Shown one piece after another: positions 40,991 to 63,701 of a stretch of DNA of 64,000 nucleotides (positions are counted from its first letter, which is position 1; each line of letters opens with the position of its first letter). Source of the DNA: Haloplanus rubicundus (lineage in GTDB: Archaea; Halobacteriota; Halobacteria; Halobacteriales; Haloferacaceae); NCBI RefSeq assembly GCF_003342675.1, contig NZ_CP031148.1, positions 310,001 to 374,000 of the forward strand, written 5' to 3'. The position numbers and the translations under genes were made by a program. The notes beneath the pieces are model-generated. The model was not told the origin of the DNA. It saw only the letters and a program-made list of their open reading frames with translations, and searched no databases.

Positions 40991-42121
40991 CTATCCTCCG
41001 CGCTCGCTCTCCGCCCGCAGGAGCGCCGCGACTCCCTCACGAACCGCCGCGTGGAACCGGTCGCTCGCGTAGCGGTCCCGCGGGAGCGTGGGCCGGGCGT
41101 CGTCCACAATCGCCGCGGCAATCGTCGCCACGGCGTCGGGCGTCGAATCGAACAGCCGGTCCGAACGGCCGGCGAGCACCTCCCGCTGGCCGCCGGCGTC
41201 GGGCGCGAACGCCACCATCCCCGCGGCGACGTACTCGGCGACCGCCATCCCGAAGTGTTCCTCGGGCTTGCAGTTCAGGCCGTAGCGGTGGGTGGCGAGT
41301 AGCTCCGTCACCCGCTCGGGGGGTGCGTCGCGGTCGAGGTGGACGTACGGCCGGTCGGCGGCCGCGGCCGCCACCCGTCGGCCGTAGTCGGCGTAGATGG
41401 TCGACGACGACCCGACGAGGTGGAGATGCAGGTCGTACCCCCGAGCGCGGACGCCGTCGACGACGTCGATGGCCCGGAGCGGGCGCTTGTCCGGCGCGAG
41501 ACGGCCGAGGACGACGACGCCGGTCTCCCGCTCGGCCCACGGCCGCGGGTTCGGGACGGGATCGACCGGCGGGTGGAGCACGTCGGGGCGCCGTCCGTAG
41601 ATGGCTTCGACGGCGTCGGCCGTCCACGCGGAGTTGGCGAGGAGACGGGCGTCGTCCGGGAGCCGTCGGTCGCCGACGCCGGCCAACCGACTCCACAGCG
41701 GGTCGAGACGGGGCGTCCCGCCGGCCGGGGCGTGCCGGCGATTGAACTGCGGGAAGTGGACGTACTGGAGCGAGGGGAGCGGGAGGGCGAACTCGTTGGC
41801 GGTGCTGACGGCGGCGTCGAAGTCGGCGGCGTGCGGGGCGAAGAGGCGGCGGAGCAGGACGCTCCGCGCCGCCAGTTGCGGGCCGTAGCGGTCGGGGAGG
41901 GCATCGAACCCCCGGCAGACGAGTTCGGTCCCGGGCGGTCGGCGGACCCGCACATCGGCGTCGGTGTCGAAGAGTGCGTTGAGTTCCGCGAGCGACGAGC
42001 GGGAGAGGGTGACCAGCGTCACGTCGTGGACGGCCTGAAGCGCCTCGCAGACGTGGAGACAGACGGTGTCGGCGCCGCCGCGGCCGTCGAGCGTGTTGTG
42101 GAGGACCGCCACCCGTGCCAT
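40991..42121 (-). CDS. GT4-family glycosyltransferase
   Basis: GT-B fold retaining glycosyltransferase of 376 aa. The N-terminal domain has DGRGGADTVCLHVCEAL near residue 12 and YVHFPQFNRR near 140. The C-terminal domain carries VVLGRLAPDKRPLRAIDVV and the E-x7-E nucleotide motif KPEEHFGMAVAEYVAAG. It has no membrane anchor, so it acts at the cytoplasmic face. Its gene diverges from the Gfo-AKR fusion across the palindromic element at 42149-42228, whose outer arm supplies its TATA box. Confidence 0.9.
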   Translation of the reverse strand: MARVAVLHNTLDGRGGADTVCLHVCEALQAVHDVTLVTLSRSSLAELNALFDTDADVRVRRPPGTELVCRGFDALPDRYGPQLAARSVLLRRLFAPHAADFDAAVSTANEFALPLPSLQYVHFPQFNRRHAPAGGTPRLDPLWSRLAGVGDRRLPDDARLLANSAWTADAVEAIYGRRPDVLHPPVDPVPNPRPWAERETGVVVLGRLAPDKRPLRAIDVVDGVRARGYDLHLHLVGSSSTIYADYGRRVAAAAADRPYVHLDRDAPPERVTELLATHRYGLNCKPEEHFGMAVAEYVAAGMVAFAPDAGGQREVLAGRSDRLFDSTPDAVATIAAAIVDDARPTLPRDRYASDRFHAAVREGVAALLRAESERGG

Positions 42122-42145: not shown

Positions 42146-42151
42146 CTTATA
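42146..42151 (-). promoter_or_regulatory. TATA box of the GT4 gene, overlapping the element end
   Basis: On the minus strand this reads TATAAG, and it lies 28 nt before the ATG at 42121. The first three bases belong to the element's terminal repeat. The 14-mer GCCGGCAGTATAAG recurs with one change (A for G) at 46121-46134, in the promoter of the PTPS-like gene. Confidence 0.5.
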
Positions 42152-42228
42152 CTGCCGGCTGTAACTGTTTCAAGATCCCCGTCACTCCGGGGTGACGGGG
42201 GTCTTGGTTGACTTACAGCCGGCAGTAT
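42149..42228 (+). repeat. Palindromic element, copy 1 (80 bp)
   Basis: Ends in a perfect 16-bp inverted repeat (ATACTGCCGGCTGTAA and its inverse). Inside is a 12-bp hairpin (42174-42185 with 42192-42203, one G-T wobble) around a 6-nt loop. The arms are joined by asymmetric sequence (CTGTTTCAA and TTGGTTGAC). It fills the gap between the divergent GT4 and Gfo-AKR genes. Aligned to copy 2 at 61468-61546 (opposite orientation), the changes in both stems are paired and keep the fold. Confidence 0.85.
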
Positions 42229-42278
42229 CAACTCCCATCCGGCGCGGGACTTTTCACGACAGCACCCTGCCAGGAGGT

Positions 42279-44246
42279 ATGGAGTGTGCGTTCGTGGGGT
42301 GTGGGGCGGTTGCCCGGAAGTACGCCGCCACGGTCGACGCCTCGGCGCTCTCGGTGACGGCGGTCTGTGACCTCGATGCCGACCGCGCCGCTGCCTTCGC
42401 GGCCGACCACGACGCCGCGGCGTACACCGACCTCGACGCGATGCTCGACGCCGAGGCGGTCCCTCTGGTGCTGAACCTCACGGGCCACGACGCCCACGCC
42501 GCGGTGACCGAGCGCGCCCTGCGGGCGGGGCGCCACGTCTGGAGCGAGAAACCGCTCGCCGTCGACGCCGACCGGGCGCGGAAACTGGTCGCGCTCGCCG
42601 AGCGCCGGGGGCTGGCGCTCGGCTGTGCGCCGATCAACGCCGACTGCGAGGCCCAGCGACACGCGGGGAGGGCGCTCGCGGACGGCCGCCTCGGGACGGT
42701 GCGCCTGGCCTACGCCCACGCCCACGTCGGCCGGGTGACCGCGTGGCACGACGACCCCGACGCCTTCCTCCGGGTCGGGCCGCTGTACGACGGTGCGGTC
42801 TACCCCCTCACCCTCCTCGTGGCGTGGTTCGGTCCCGTCGAGCGGGTTCGAGTCGCCGACGCCACCGACCCGTGGCCGGACCGCGAGGCGAAGCGGCCGG
42901 CGCGACCGAGTCACGTCGAGGCGACGCTCGCGTTCGCCGATGGCCCGCTGGTCCGCCTGACGGCGAGTTTCTACGCCCCCCACCGGAGCCGGGAGTTCAC
43001 GAGCCTCGAACTGCACGGCGACGACGGCTCGCTCTACCTCGACGACGCCGGTGACCTCGGCGGCGAGGCGGGCCACCGCGTCGCCTTCGGGCGCGAGGGG
43101 CGGGGCTACGCGCCGATGCCCATCCAGAAGCCGTCGCGGCGGACCCCCTACCTCGCCGGACCGGAGCGACTGGCCGCGAGCGTCCGGCGGGGGCGGCCCG
43201 ACCGGGCGTCGGCGCGGCGCGCGAGCCACGTCGTCGCCGTCTGTAACGCCGTCGAGCGGGCCGACGAGGCGGGGACGAGCGTCGCCGTCACGGACGCCGG
43301 CGTCGACCGACCCGACCGGCAGCGGGTGGCGTGGTGCGGCGCGGAGGAGGCCCCCCACCCGCCCGACGCCGCGCTCCGCCTCCCGCCTGTCGGCTTCGGC
43401 TGTTCGCGCTACCGCGGCGACGAGTACGTCGACCGCCGGGACTCCATCGCGACGGCACTCGACGCCGGCTACCGCTTGCTCGACTCCGCGGAGCTGTACG
43501 GCAACGAGGCGCGGATCGGCGAGCTACTGGCGGCGCCGGGAACCCCGGACCGCGACGCGCTCTTTCTCGCAAGCAAGGTCTGGAACACGAACCACGGCCA
43601 CGTCGCGGAGGCCTGCGAGACGACGCTCGACGAACTCGGCGTCGACGCCCTCGACTGTTACCTGCTCCACTGGCCGGACGCGTGGGAATACACCGGTCCC
43701 CTGCGCCGCCTCGCCGAGTTGCCGGTCGCGAAGCAGGAGGCACGCACCTTCCCGGAGGACGACGACGGGGAGCGGGCGACGGCCGACGTGAGTCTGGAGG
43801 AGGCGTGGCGAGGGCTGGAGACCCTCCACGACCGCGGCCTCGCGGCGTCGCTCGGGGTCTGTAACGTCGACCGTGCGACGCTATCGCGGGTCGTCGAGTT
43901 CGCACGGGTGCCACCGGCGGTCGTGCAGGTCGAACACCACCCATACCGCCCACAGCGCGACCTGGTGTCGTGGTGTCACGAGCGGGGGATTCGGGTGGTC
44001 GCCCACTCGCCGCTGTCGGCGCCGGGGCTCCTCGACGACGCCGCGGTCCGGGAGACGGCGGCGGAGATGGGCGTCTCGCCCGCGGCGGCCGTCGTCGCCT
44101 GGAACGTCGACCGGGGCGTCGTCCCCATCCCGTCGAGCACCGACTCCGACCACGTCGTCGAGAACCTCGCCGCCGCGGGCTATCGCCTCACCGACGCGGA
44201 CCGGGAGCGCCTGGCGACCCTCGAAGATCCGGAGTTCGGCCGATGA
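42279..44246 (+). CDS. Gfo/Idh/MocA oxidoreductase fused to aldo/keto reductase (655 aa)
   Basis: Two redox enzymes in one chain. Residues 1 to about 345 are Gfo/Idh/MocA: the Rossmann start MECAFVGCGAVARKYA, the EKP motif at residues 90-92, and a beta-sheet C-half. From about 370 the aldo/keto reductase has the catalytic tetrad D402, Y407, K433 and H464 and the PVGFGCSRYRGDEY start. A poorly ordered linker (about 345-370) joins them. The ATG at 42279 follows a TTTTCA box at 42251-42256. It overlaps the CDP-alcohol phosphatidyltransferase by 4 bp. Confidence 0.88.
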   Translation: MECAFVGCGAVARKYAATVDASALSVTAVCDLDADRAAAFAADHDAAAYTDLDAMLDAEAVPLVLNLTGHDAHAAVTERALRAGRHVWSEKPLAVDADRARKLVALAERRGLALGCAPINADCEAQRHAGRALADGRLGTVRLAYAHAHVGRVTAWHDDPDAFLRVGPLYDGAVYPLTLLVAWFGPVERVRVADATDPWPDREAKRPARPSHVEATLAFADGPLVRLTASFYAPHRSREFTSLELHGDDGSLYLDDAGDLGGEAGHRVAFGREGRGYAPMPIQKPSRRTPYLAGPERLAASVRRGRPDRASARRASHVVAVCNAVERADEAGTSVAVTDAGVDRPDRQRVAWCGAEEAPHPPDAALRLPPVGFGCSRYRGDEYVDRRDSIATALDAGYRLLDSAELYGNEARIGELLAAPGTPDRDALFLASKVWNTNHGHVAEACETTLDELGVDALDCYLLHWPDAWEYTGPLRRLAELPVAKQEARTFPEDDDGERATADVSLEEAWRGLETLHDRGLAASLGVCNVDRATLSRVVEFARVPPAVVQVEHHPYRPQRDLVSWCHERGIRVVAHSPLSAPGLLDDAAVRETAAEMGVSPAAAVVAWNVDRGVVPIPSSTDSDHVVENLAAAGYRLTDADRERLATLEDPEFGR

Positions 44247-46110: not shown

Positions 46111-46120
46111 GCGACACGCG

Positions 46121-46134
46121 GCCGACAGTATAAG
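46121..46134 (+). promoter_or_regulatory. Promoter of the PTPS-like gene, sharing the element-end 14-mer
   Basis: GCCGACAGTATAAG contains a TATA box about 28 nt before the ATG at 46158. GCCGACAGTAT is identical to the terminus of the palindromic element copy 2, and TATAAG follows as in the GT4 promoter. Either a shared control site or the remnant of a third element copy. Confidence 0.5.
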
Positions 46135-58933: not shown

Positions 58934-61468
58934 GTGGAGATGGGACCCGGAACCGACCCGATCCGCGTACTTCACGTCGACGACGACCCCGCCTTCCTCG
59001 ACGTGGCGGCGACGTTACTCGAACGCAAGGACGACCGGATCGAGGTGGCCACGGCCACGAGCGCGGACGAGGGGCTGGAACGCCTCGACGATGCCGACGT
59101 CGACTGCATCGTCTCCGATTACGACATGCCCGGACTGAACGGTATCGACTTCCTCGAACGCGTCCGCGCGTCGGGGGATGGCCGTCCGTTCGTCCTCTTC
59201 ACCGGGAAGGGTAGCGAGGAGGTGGCGAGCGAGGCCATCTCGGCCGGCGTGACCGACTACCTCCAGAAGGCTCCGGGGAGCGAACAGTACGAGATTCTGC
59301 TCAACCGGATCGTCAACGCCGTCGAGGCGGCGCGAATCCGTGCCCGAGCGACCAGACAGGAGCGGATCAACACGCTGATCAGGGAGAGCAACCGCCGGCT
59401 GGTCGCCGCCGACACCGTCGAAGACATCGAGGGCGCCGTCTGTCGGACGCTCACCAACGCCACCCCCTTCCGGTTCGCGTGGATCGGCGAACCCGAAGCG
59501 AACGGCGAAATCGTCCCCCGGACCTCGGCGGGCGACGCCGACGACTACCTCGACGAGGTGACGATCTACCACGACGACCGGCCGCGCGGGCAGGGGCCGG
59601 GCGGCCGCGCCATCCGGACGGACGAACTCCAGGTCGCCCAGAACATTCCGGACGACCCCTCGTTCGCACCGTGGCACGACGTGGCCGAACGGTACGGCTA
59701 CGAGTCGGTAACGGTCGTGCCGCTGTCGTACGGTGGCGGCCGGACGGGCATCCTGGCCATCTACGCCGACAGCCCACACGCCTTCGACGAGGTGGAGCTG
59801 AGCGTCCTCGAGGAACTCGGCGAGACGATCGGTCGGGCGCTCGAAGCGGCCGAGACCAGACGCCGACTCGAATCGCGGCGAGCGGCCGAACGGACCCGGA
59901 AGGAAGGCCACTACCGGACGCTCGTTGACGCCCTCCCCAACGGCGCAATCGCCCTCTTCGACACCGACCTCCGATACACCGTCGTCGGGGGCGCCGTCTT
60001 CGATGACCTGGACCTCTCGCCCGAGGACATGGAGGGAGAGGCGCTGACGGCCGTCCACTCGACGGCGTTTTGCGAGGCCTACCTCCAGCATTACCGGGCA
60101 GTCCTCGACGGCGCGGAGCGAACCTTCGAGTTCGAGTACGCGGACCGCACCTTCGAGGCCCACGTCGCGCCCGTGCGGGACGAGACGGGCGCCGTCGACG
60201 GCGGCATCGCGATGACACAGGACGTGACCGACCGGGTGCGGCGCCAGCGGGAACTGAGACGGCGGGAGCGCGTCCTCCGCGAGACGTACGAGGTGATCGC
60301 CGACCCGTCGCTGTCGGTCGAGGAGGGGGTTCGGCGGCTCCTGGCGATCGGCGCCGACGTCCTCGACGTTCGGTACGGCATCCTCTCCCGCGTCGACGGG
60401 GACGAGTACGCCTTCGAGGTGGTCCACGCGCCCGACGAGGACGGCAAAGCGGTCGGGGACGGCGGGCCGGCCGAGGGCGACACCGTCGCGCTGACCGCGA
60501 CGAACTGCGAGCGCGTCGTCCGGAGCGGGGAGACGGTCGCCGTCGCGGACGTGAGCGACGACCCGGACTGCGACGCCCGGACGCCCGCCGCCGAGTCCGA
60601 CCTCGCGTGTTACGTCGGCGCCCCCGTCGTGATCGACGGCGAGACGGACGGGACGTTCTGTTTCTACGATACGGACCCCCACGACGGGGCGTTCTCGGAG
60701 TGGGAGCTGACGCTCGTCGACCTGCTCTCGCGGTGGGTGGGCGTCGCACTCGACCGCCACGAGACCAACGCCCGCCTCCGCACGCAGAACGAACGGGTCC
60801 GGGAATTCACGAGCATCGTCTCTCACGACCTGCGCAATCCGCTCACCGTGCTCGGTGGCGCGCTCGAACTCGCCGAGGCGACTGGGGAGACCGAACAGTT
60901 CGACCGCTGCCGACGCGCGCTGGACCGGATGGGGTCGCTCGTCGACGACCTCACGACGCTCACGCGGGAGGGGGCGGTCGTCACGGACGCCGAACCGGTG
61001 GCGCTGGGGTGGGCGGCGCGGGCGTGCTGGGAGACGGTGGAAACTGGGACGGCCGAACTCCGTCTCGACGGCGACGCCCCGATTCTGGCTGACGAGGCGC
61101 GGCTGCGACAGCTACTGGAGAATCTGTTTCGGAATTCGGTCGAGCATGGCTCCACGGACAACCGGCGCGGAGACGCCGGTGATTCGGTCGAGCACGGCTC
61201 GACCGACGACGACGGACTGACGGTGCGCATCGGCGTCCTCGACGACGGGTTCTACGTCGAAGACGACGGGGTCGGGATCCCCGAGGACGAGCGTGCTCGG
61301 GTGTTCGAGCGCGGCTACTCGACGACGGCGACCGGAACCGGGCTCGGACTATCTATCGTCGAGAAGATGGCCGCCGCCCACGGCTGGACCGTCGCCGTGA
61401 GCGAGAGCGGCGCGGGCGGCGCCCGGATCGACGTGCGGGGCGTCGAGATGGACGACGGGCGCGAGTGA
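58934..61468 (+). CDS. REC-GAF-PAS-GAF hybrid histidine kinase (844 aa)
   Basis: Soluble multi-domain sensor. Residues 1-130 are a receiver domain (phospho-Asp D62 in VSDYDMPG). A GAF domain follows (about 150-310), then PAS (about 320-430), a second GAF (about 445-605), and the kinase core with H631 in SIVSHDLRNPL, N-box LENLFRNSVEHG and G-box GTGLGLSIVEKM. The N-box is followed by a 16-residue in-frame duplication (SVEHGSTD twice, 61135 and 61183). The start could be GTG 58934 or ATG 58940. Its stop codon overlaps the palindromic element copy 2. Confidence 0.88.
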   Translation: MEMGPGTDPIRVLHVDDDPAFLDVAATLLERKDDRIEVATATSADEGLERLDDADVDCIVSDYDMPGLNGIDFLERVRASGDGRPFVLFTGKGSEEVASEAISAGVTDYLQKAPGSEQYEILLNRIVNAVEAARIRARATRQERINTLIRESNRRLVAADTVEDIEGAVCRTLTNATPFRFAWIGEPEANGEIVPRTSAGDADDYLDEVTIYHDDRPRGQGPGGRAIRTDELQVAQNIPDDPSFAPWHDVAERYGYESVTVVPLSYGGGRTGILAIYADSPHAFDEVELSVLEELGETIGRALEAAETRRRLESRRAAERTRKEGHYRTLVDALPNGAIALFDTDLRYTVVGGAVFDDLDLSPEDMEGEALTAVHSTAFCEAYLQHYRAVLDGAERTFEFEYADRTFEAHVAPVRDETGAVDGGIAMTQDVTDRVRRQRELRRRERVLRETYEVIADPSLSVEEGVRRLLAIGADVLDVRYGILSRVDGDEYAFEVVHAPDEDGKAVGDGGPAEGDTVALTATNCERVVRSGETVAVADVSDDPDCDARTPAAESDLACYVGAPVVIDGETDGTFCFYDTDPHDGAFSEWELTLVDLLSRWVGVALDRHETNARLRTQNERVREFTSIVSHDLRNPLTVLGGALELAEATGETEQFDRCRRALDRMGSLVDDLTTLTREGAVVTDAEPVALGWAARACWETVETGTAELRLDGDAPILADEARLRQLLENLFRNSVEHGSTDNRRGDAGDSVEHGSTDDDGLTVRIGVLDDGFYVEDDGVGIPEDERARVFERGYSTTATGTGLGLSIVEKMAAAHGWTVAVSESGAGGARIDVRGVEMDDGRE
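61135..61209 (+). repeat. 48-bp in-frame repeat in the kinase N-box region
   Basis: TTCGGTCGAGCA starts at 61135 and recurs at 61183, a 48-bp period (16 codons) encoding SVEHGSTD twice. Between the copies, CCGGCG-x6-CGCCGG forms a 6-bp hairpin at 61162-61179. This kind of repeat can vary in copy number by slippage while staying in frame. Confidence 0.7.
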
Positions 61469-61546
61469 TACTGTCGGCTGTAAGTCAATCGAGACGTTCG
61501 CCACCCGGGGTGGCGAACGTTTTGAAACAGTTCCAGCCGACAGTAT
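61468..61546 (-). repeat. Palindromic element, copy 2 (79 bp)
   Basis: Opposite orientation to copy 1 at 42149-42228. It has 16-bp terminal repeats with one mismatch and a perfect 12-bp hairpin (ACGTTCGCCACC with its inverse, 61494-61505 and 61509-61520). The asymmetric motifs between the arms are kept (AACTGTTTCAA and GATTGACTTA on the minus strand). It begins on the last base of the kinase stop codon and ends 2 bp before the peroxiredoxin stop, filling the whole gap between the convergent genes. Confidence 0.85.
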
Positions 61547-61548
61547 GC

Positions 61549-62022
61549 CTATGCCGACCGGGCGGCGTCGAGGACGGCCTCGTAGTCGGGTTCGTTCGTC
61601 GGGTCGTCGGCCACCCAGGTGTACGTGACGGTGCCCTCGTCGTCGAGGACGAAGACGGCGCGGTTGGCGATCCCGTAGAGGCCGAGGTCGGGGATGTCCA
61701 TCGTCAGCCCGTAGGCCTCGATGGTGTCGCCGTCCATGTCGCTCACGAGGTCGAACTCCAGGCCGTGTTCCTCGCGGAACGCGCCCTGTGAGAACGGCGA
61801 GTCGGCGCTGATACCCAACACCGTCGCTCCGGCGTCGTGGAAGTCGTCGAGGTGATCCTGCAGCCCGAGCATCTCGTTCCGACAGGGCGGGGTGAAGGCG
61901 CCGGGGAAGAAGGCGAGGACGACGGGACCGTCGCCGAGGTGGTCGTCGAGGTCGAACGATTCGTGTTCGGCCGTGCCACGCGTCGCGGTAAAGATCGGGG
62001 CGGTGTCGCCGGTGGATACCAT
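61549..62022 (-). CDS. Peroxiredoxin (AhpC/TSA-type, probably 1-Cys)
   Basis: Thiol peroxidase of 157 aa. The active-site region FFPGAFTPPCRNEM puts the peroxidatic Cys in a P-x3-T/P-x2-C context, and no clear resolving Cys is near the end, so a 1-Cys or AhpE-like type is likely. GISADSPFSQGAF and GIANRAVFVLDDEG are typical. The ATG at 62020-62022 is used, about 27 nt from a TTTTATTTTG promoter. It removes peroxides in the cytoplasm. Confidence 0.9.
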   Translation of the reverse strand: MVSTGDTAPIFTATRGTAEHESFDLDDHLGDGPVVLAFFPGAFTPPCRNEMLGLQDHLDDFHDAGATVLGISADSPFSQGAFREEHGLEFDLVSDMDGDTIEAYGLTMDIPDLGLYGIANRAVFVLDDEGTVTYTWVADDPTNEPDYEAVLDAARSA

Positions 62023-62108
62023 ACGGGATGGAAGGGCCGCGGACAAAATAAAACCCGTCACGAACGGGTGGCACGAGCTTTTACTACCGATGGGGAGTAG
62101 GGGGGCGC

Positions 62109-63701
62109 ATGGCCGAGTTCGGCTCACTCTCGCTCGTTCCCCCGTTGCTCGCCATCGGGTTAGCTATCGTGACGCGAAAGGCGGTGTTGTCGCTCTTCCT
62201 CGGCGTGTGGGCGGGGGGAGTCATCTTCACGGGCGGGTTCGGGCTGGGGCAGACGTTCGAGTGGATCGCCGCCGCCATCGGCGACAGCACGTTCCACGCC
62301 CAGATCATCATCTTCACGCTGTTGCTCGGGTCGGCGGTCGCGATGATCTGGCGCCTCGGCGGCTCCCACGCGGTGCGGGACTGGGCCATCGAGCGCCTCG
62401 ACACGCGGCGCAAGGTCGGCGTCGCGACGTGGCTGCTCGGCCTCCTCCTCTTTTTCGACGACTACGCCAACACGGCCGTCGTCGGGAGCACGATGCGCGA
62501 CGTCTCCGATCACCTGCGGATCTCGCGGGAGAAGCTGGCGTATCTCGTCGACTCGACGGCCGCCCCGGTGGCGACGCTCGCCGTCTCCTCGTGGGTCGCC
62601 TTTCAGCTGTCGATGATCGAGTCGGGCTACGAGGCGGCCGACATCGCCGCCAGCGAGGTGCCGAACGCCTTCGCGGTGTTTCTCGAATCGATCCCGTACA
62701 ACGCCTACGCCATCCTCGCCATCGCGATGGTGGGTATCGTCGTCCTGAGCGGCCGGGACTACGGCGAGATGCTCGCCGCCGAACATCGGGCCGCCGAGAC
62801 GGGGCGGGTCACCCGCGAGGACGCCCGGCCGATGCAGGACGTGGCGGCCGAACTCGGCGAACCGAGCGTCGAGAACCCGCGGCTGCTCGCTTTCTTCCTC
62901 CCCATCGGCGTGCTGGTCGTCGCGACGCTCGGGACGGCGCTCTGGACGGGGTACGCGCCGGGCGCCTCGCTGTACGACACGGTGATCGACGCCGACTACG
63001 CGGTGGCGCTCATCTTCGGCTCCTTCGCGATGGTGGTCTCGACGTACGTCCTCGGCTACACCACCGGCCGGCTGACCCTCGGCGAGAGCGTCGACACGAC
63101 CATCGACGGGTTCGGGATCATGCTGACCGCGGTGACGATTCTCGTCCTCGCGTGGTCCATCGGCAACGTCGTCGAGGCGCTCGGGACCGGCGAGTACGTC
63201 GGCGGCGTCGCCGGACAGGTGCTCGATCCGGCGCTGTTGCCCGTCGTCGTGCTCGGTACCGCCGCGTTCGTCGCGTTCTCGACCGGGAGTTCGTGGGGGA
63301 CGATGGCGATCGTGACCCCCATCGCCGTCCCGGTCGCCTGGGAGCTGACCGGTGATCACACCATGGTCGCGGCGCTGGTCGGCAGCGTCTTCTCCGGCGC
63401 CATCTTCGGGGATCACGCCTCGCCCATCTCCGATACGACCGTCCTCTCCGCGACCTTTACCGGTGCGGACCTGGTCGATCACGTCCGCACCCAACTGTAC
63501 TACGCCGTCACCGTCGGAGTCGTCGCCGCCGCCCTGCTCGTCGTGTGGGGATACACCCGCATCACGCCGTGGCTCCTGTTGTCGGTCGGCGTCGTCGCAC
63601 TCGTCGGGCTAGTGTACGGCCTCTCGGCGCTCGACGGCCGCCGGCGCGGTGTCGACCCGGCCGTGTCGGACGACGCGGACGCGGCGGTGGCCGACGACTG
63701 A
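62109..63701 (+). CDS. nhaC: Na+/H+ antiporter, NhaC family
   Basis: Membrane transporter of 530 aa with about 12 hydrophobic helices. It has the NhaC-type FDDYANTAVVGSTMRDVSD motif near residue 117, STGSSWGTMAIVTPIAVPVAW near 397, and FGDHASPISDTTVLSA near 435, which hold the ion-binding acids. It is likely to swap sodium for protons and suits a halophile. A CTTTTAC box (62078-62084) is 29 nt upstream. Confidence 0.92.
   Translation: MAEFGSLSLVPPLLAIGLAIVTRKAVLSLFLGVWAGGVIFTGGFGLGQTFEWIAAAIGDSTFHAQIIIFTLLLGSAVAMIWRLGGSHAVRDWAIERLDTRRKVGVATWLLGLLLFFDDYANTAVVGSTMRDVSDHLRISREKLAYLVDSTAAPVATLAVSSWVAFQLSMIESGYEAADIAASEVPNAFAVFLESIPYNAYAILAIAMVGIVVLSGRDYGEMLAAEHRAAETGRVTREDARPMQDVAAELGEPSVENPRLLAFFLPIGVLVVATLGTALWTGYAPGASLYDTVIDADYAVALIFGSFAMVVSTYVLGYTTGRLTLGESVDTTIDGFGIMLTAVTILVLAWSIGNVVEALGTGEYVGGVAGQVLDPALLPVVVLGTAAFVAFSTGSSWGTMAIVTPIAVPVAWELTGDHTMVAALVGSVFSGAIFGDHASPISDTTVLSATFTGADLVDHVRTQLYYAVTVGVVAAALLVVWGYTRITPWLLLSVGVVALVGLVYGLSALDGRRRGVDPAVSDDADAAVADD

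Follow-up and report, generated by a model that had tools for sequence, protein, structure and literature searches.

The two palindromes in the 64,000-nucleotide stretch of Haloplanus rubicundus DNA analysed here (the window) are copies of a MITE and not a structured RNA, and they represent a family that is new in sequence and ordinary in kind. This reading follows from the copy number of the element, its terminal inverted repeats, its TNA target duplications, the presence of empty orthologous sites, and the existence of insertion sequences with matching ends. A sequence-only reading of the window had offered a MITE/REP-like mobile element, a structured RNA, or a protein site as explanations; the first is supported, in the form of a MITE, and the other two are very unlikely.

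The two palindromes

The palindromes lie where the sequence-only reading had placed them and have the layout it described. Copy 1 (42149-42228) comprises 80 bp, and copy 2 (61468-61546, minus strand) comprises 79 bp, one base of the central loop being missing. Both possess the terminal arms, linkers, and central hairpin; the hairpin arms, CCCCGTCAC versus TTCGCCACC, differ between the copies and yet pair in each, and the paired change of the outer arms from C-G to T-A is found at alignment columns 7 and 74. Relative to shuffled sequences, the fold of copy 1 had a z of -11.5 and that of copy 2 a z of -9.5. Chance does not account for the resemblance of the two copies, as a BLASTN search with copy 1 reached copy 2 at an E value of 7e-12.

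The 80 bp as first delimited take in one base of a TNA duplication on each side. The element itself consists of a 78-bp core (TACTGYCGGCTGTAA...TTACAGCCGRCAGTA), TACTG...CAGTA, situated between 3-bp TNA duplications, the core being 77 bp in copy 2. The core of copy 1 (42150..42227, plus strand) lies in the divergent spacer between a glycosyltransferase gene (40991-42121, minus strand) and a GFO/IDH/MocA-aldo/keto reductase gene (42279-44246, plus strand). Its terminal inverted repeat, TACTGCCGGCTGTAA, occupies 42150..42164 on the plus strand and 42213..42227 on the minus strand, and its central near-perfect palindrome (42171..42206, plus strand) is formed by pairing of 42171-42186 with 42191-42206. 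The core of copy 2 (61469..61545, minus strand) is inserted in the TGA stop codon of a GAF/histidine-kinase gene (58934-61468, plus strand), which is convergent with an AhpC/TSA peroxiredoxin gene (61549-62127, minus strand); its central hairpin (61494..61520, minus strand) pairs 61494-61505 with 61509-61520. The target duplications of both window copies are imperfect. The left duplication of copy 1 is TTA (42147..42149) and the right now reads TCA (42228..42230), one transition from TTA, while copy 2 has on its left the TGA of the kinase stop codon (61466..61468) and on its right what is now TGC (61546..61548), probably a decayed TGA. A lone end, TACTGTCGGCCG, follows TTA at 46119-46130 on the minus strand without a convincing partner end, and is possibly either a truncated relic of the family or a chance match.

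Copies, subfamilies, and distribution

The two copies first recognized are accompanied by others. BLASTN with copy 1 (E values down to 7e-36) revealed about 21 full-length copies of 77-80 bp in the window's genome, all on the main chromosome, and fragments besides. Running a structure-aware model of 21 copies on the same genome then identified roughly a dozen further copies, a second subfamily having a different tip and stem and similar inner motifs, TGTAACTGTT and TGACTTACA; these asymmetric subterminal motifs are conserved across the subfamilies. One second-subfamily element is nested within a decayed first-subfamily copy and flanked by TCA/TCA (L064 2001-2082, corresponding to G000:C2:577799-577880). 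The chromosome carries more than 30 copies, and none was found on the genome's two plasmids, C1 and C3 (~367 kb).

The lack of copies on these two plasmids and the conservation of the asymmetric subterminal motifs would suit a protein-binding site or chromosome-architecture element kept by the host, but the presence of the element varies among sister species, plasmids of other species carry it, and its copies decay, which makes a host-maintained site highly improbable. Plasmid copies were found in Haloarcula, Halomicrobium, Natribaculum, and Haloplanus, an example being that of Haloplanus sp. HW8-1 (NZ_CP098520.1, 22432-22511).

Of 195 genomes of the order, 30 contained the end motif TNATACTGTCGGCTRTAR together with a duplication; the reversed end motif, used as a control, gave 0 matches in the genomes listed in that scan. 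Among candidate end pairs across genomes the core length was mostly 77-80 bp, with 78 bp by far the commonest. There is also a 102-108 bp class (L082, L083, L084, and L054) that has the same TACTGTCGGCTGTAA ends and mostly TNA flanks around another interior. The strict internal pattern was found only in Halorhabdus amylolytica in a scan of named genomes, a collection that may omit Haloplanus. Phage records gave no match to the element, and viral contigs gave 7 one-ended matches. The one-ended matches L085, L089, L096, and L098 have no partner end and were set aside as degraded copies. Searching the open literature for the exact end strings returned unrelated papers only, and the family is widespread in haloarchaea and apparently undescribed so far.

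Target duplications and empty sites

In 56 elements the terminal repeats were 15 bp long with a mean complementarity of 90%, and the element is without coding capacity. The check for target-site duplications proposed in the sequence-only reading gave a clear outcome: the three flanking bases were identical in 53 of 106 candidate end pairs, a set that includes some false nested pairs, as compared to 0-5 at eight shifted offsets. The 51 exact duplications retained were TGA, TCA, TAA, or TTA, most commonly in the context CTNAG.

The joined flanks of 14 copies were then searched against seven Haloplanus genomes. Uninterrupted matches were obtained in sister species for copy 1 and for L029, L012, L019, L021, and L018, and the aligned empty site contained a single TNA for L029, L019, L021, and L012. 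The site orthologous to that of copy 1 is empty in one sister species (G005), where it reads CGTCTTAACTTCC with a single TTA.

These results also bear on a REP/PATE/IS200-605-type element, which a Y1 transposase would recognize as a single-stranded hairpin. The element is indeed palindromic, short, and intergenic, and Haloquadratum is rich in PATEs and short mobile repeats (PMC3119063). However, PATEs and IS605 are without the terminal inverted repeats and target duplications (PMC3119063) that the MITE has, and a Y1-type mover, contradicted by the duplications and the empty sites, is scarcely credible. The MITE family is mildly unusual in its near-invariant length of 78 bp and in duplicating TNA, not TA.

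Insertion sites

With open reading frames called by codon usage, approximately 17 of 33 copies, copy 2 among them, abut a gene exactly at the stop codon. Of the nine non-coding CTNAG sites in the window, four are stop codons, so that the preference for CTNAG and selection against disrupted genes would be enough to give this share. Insertions into stop codons would persist because duplication of TGA or TAA supplies the stop again. Copies occur in spacers of all three kinds, divergent, tandem, and convergent, and the family accounts for many puzzling palindromes at the 3' ends of genes.

In G001 and apparently in G002, the site of copy 1 is occupied by elements resembling the second subfamily (with TAA and a one-base offset in G001), and the L029 site holds a different element in G009; some sites have therefore been struck repeatedly. 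The copy 1 site, seen as L288, L289, and L169 in G001, G002, and G005, is an insertion hot spot. Separately, unrelated insertion sequences appear to sit centrally in palindromic elements of this type (L127, in G139:C1, and L216, at G139:C1:235453), as if hairpins were attractive to other transposons.

Paired changes in the central palindrome

The sequence-only reading had taken a changing sequence with a conserved structure as a sign of selection on the fold. Covariation is certainly present, as the alignment of copies contained 38 two-sided cells compared to 12 in shuffles, with 0 of 500 shuffles reaching the observed number, and arms within one copy paired better than arms across copies (0.80 versus 0.62). 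Of 13 compensated states, 11 fall within the central region, and 2-7 copies share several of these states. The changes private to a single copy were, however, 44 one-sided and 7 two-sided, and between the orthologous copies L025/L175 and L022/L297 most of the differences lack compensation, although a single outer-arm pair of L297 may have been restored. Once inserted, the copies thus show no visible upkeep of the fold, selection on it is not supported for them, and the covariation is no demonstration of a host RNA fold under selection.

A structured RNA, or an element of RNA processing or termination whose hairpin was selected in transcripts, would generate compensatory changes, and in its favor are the excess of two-sided changes over shuffles, the very stable RNA fold, and the frequent location at gene 3' ends. 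We nonetheless regard it as very unlikely. No Rfam family was matched in the window, copy 2 when searched contained no terminator-like site, and the copies occupy spacers of every orientation. The sites are empty in sister species that retain the neighboring sequence, private changes are mostly uncompensated with orthologues decaying likewise, and L099, a 78-bp relative that shares the ends and has a matched duplication, is not palindromic at its center. Compensatory changes between repeat copies alone are not evidence of a functional RNA, since subfamily inheritance in mobile elements or correction from arm to arm yields the same pattern.

For the MITE, the surplus of paired changes is consistent with their having been inherited from palindromic master copies, possibly via arm-to-arm copying. 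The paired changes of the central stem would arise in the amplifying (master) elements, either by conversion between arms or because transposition requires palindromy or a given length, and inserted copies would then decay without compensation. We entertain only tentatively the idea that the central palindrome is actively kept, both arms changing together between subfamilies at a length fixed at 78 bp; the center of L099 indicates that length may outweigh palindromy. Were the palindrome kept, the multiplication of the MITE under a TNA-specific IS630 transposase would involve either the hairpin in its DNA form or a repair step that copies palindromes.

A putative IS630-type transposase

A transposase with matching ends, which the sequence-only reading had suggested looking for, is found in other haloarchaea in the form of IS630-family elements of approximately 1.07 kb. 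From sequence comparison, we consider it highly probable that this TNA-inserting MITE family is mobilized in trans by an IS630-family transposase. Two 1070-bp elements of G161 that are identical to each other (L203/L215) encode a transposase matching DDE_3 (9e-33) and the NCBIfam model transpos_IS630 (2.4e-44), and the putative parent transposase also carries the Pfam domain HTH_33. The L203/L215 end TACTGTCGGCTGAAAATTC is identical to the MITE end at 14 of 16 positions, and L215 is flanked by TAA/TAA; only this one end of the insertion sequence matches well, the other being identical at 10 of 16. The IS630-family elements of approximately 1.07 kb have the end TACTGTCGGCTGAAA / TACTGTCGGCTGAAAA and TNA duplications like those of the MITE. 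Homologues were identified in 165 of the 392 genomes, and many of those examined (L262, L269, L271, L273, L274, and L275 included) have TACTG....GCTRAA ends and matched TTA, TCA, or TGA duplications. A second IS630 element in the window's genus (L202/L214, in G001) has ends of the form TAGTG, and both of its copies show CTGA...TGAG; still other IS630 elements combine ends beginning in TA with TNA duplications.

The flanks of the IS630 copies L203, L253, L259, and L260 agree at the T and A of the TNA and differ at the middle base (for example TGA/TCA), which recombination between copies would explain. Two overlapping frames encode the transposase of L203 (1438-2465), one with the HTH part and one with the DDE part, which suggests frameshifted expression.

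No IS630 transposase was detected in the window's genome (0 matches in G000), so that mobilization is deduced from other genomes, in which IS630 elements have one near-identical end and the same TNA duplications. The DDE transposase of such an element would cut and paste the MITE in trans, and the copies in the window's genome are probably orphans.

Several other candidate parents were rejected. At approximately 30 sampled loci, IS4/IS5-type transposases (PF01609, DDE_Tnp_1) had other ends. L127, which at first seemed to be an element of 1.5 kb, looks like a MITE with an unrelated insertion sequence inside it, and L216, the first IS630 candidate (in G139), was seen by comparison with two other copies to have its own ends, GAGTGGTC, and to sit within a palindromic element. 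The plasmids of the window's genome held no convincing parent. The DUF4096 domain (PF13340) was found in 0 of 22 genomes.

TNA duplications of 3 bp are associated with the IS1031 group of IS5, and canonical IS630 elements duplicate TA. The MITE might on that account belong to another TNA-duplicating transposase family, for example of the IS5/IS1031 type, with the match to an IS630 end being convergence. This seems unlikely to us, as DUF4096 was absent from the genomes examined, the sampled DDE_Tnp_1 loci had other ends, and multicopy IS630 elements with TNA flanks were found directly. Since the duplication made by canonical IS630/Tc1 elements is TA and not TNA (PMC2170065), the haloarchaeal IS630 lineage appears to differ from them by one base pair of stagger. 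The palindromes of the window are, on the IS630 reading, members of a haloarchaeal MITE family whose associated IS630 lineage is unusual in targeting TNA.

Comparison with known systems

Bacterial MITEs of the ERIC/RUP type are palindromic, intergenic, and about 100 bp long, and duplicate TA. The haloarchaeal MITE is like them in its palindromic intergenic form and differs in its TNA duplication and unrelated sequence. With prokaryotic MITEs in general (PMC10969869) it shares short length, absence of genes, terminal inverted repeats, a target duplication, multiple copies, and probable movement in trans; it is distinguished by a new sequence family, a near-invariant 78-bp core, and near-complete palindromy. 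The putative parents resemble the IS630 family (relatives of Tc1/mariner, for example ISY100; PMC2170065) in carrying DDE_3 and HTH_33 and in their two overlapping frames, but 3 bp of TNA are duplicated in the MITEs and haloarchaeal IS630 elements alike, in contrast to the 2 bp of TA typical of that family (PMC2170065).

A search of the Haloquadratum plasmid PL47 for SMRs turned up no element of the MITE's kind. SMR-A and SMR-B of Haloquadratum walsbyi (PMC3119063) are, like the MITE, haloarchaeal, gene-less, 80-110 bp in length, and bounded by terminal inverted repeats, but they are reported to be without target duplications or related transposons (PMC3119063), both of which the MITE has, and the description of the SMRs sets it apart. 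The PATEs of Haloquadratum (PMC3119063) are also short, palindromic, and haloarchaeal; unlike the MITE, they are related to IS605 and have neither terminal inverted repeats nor a target duplication.
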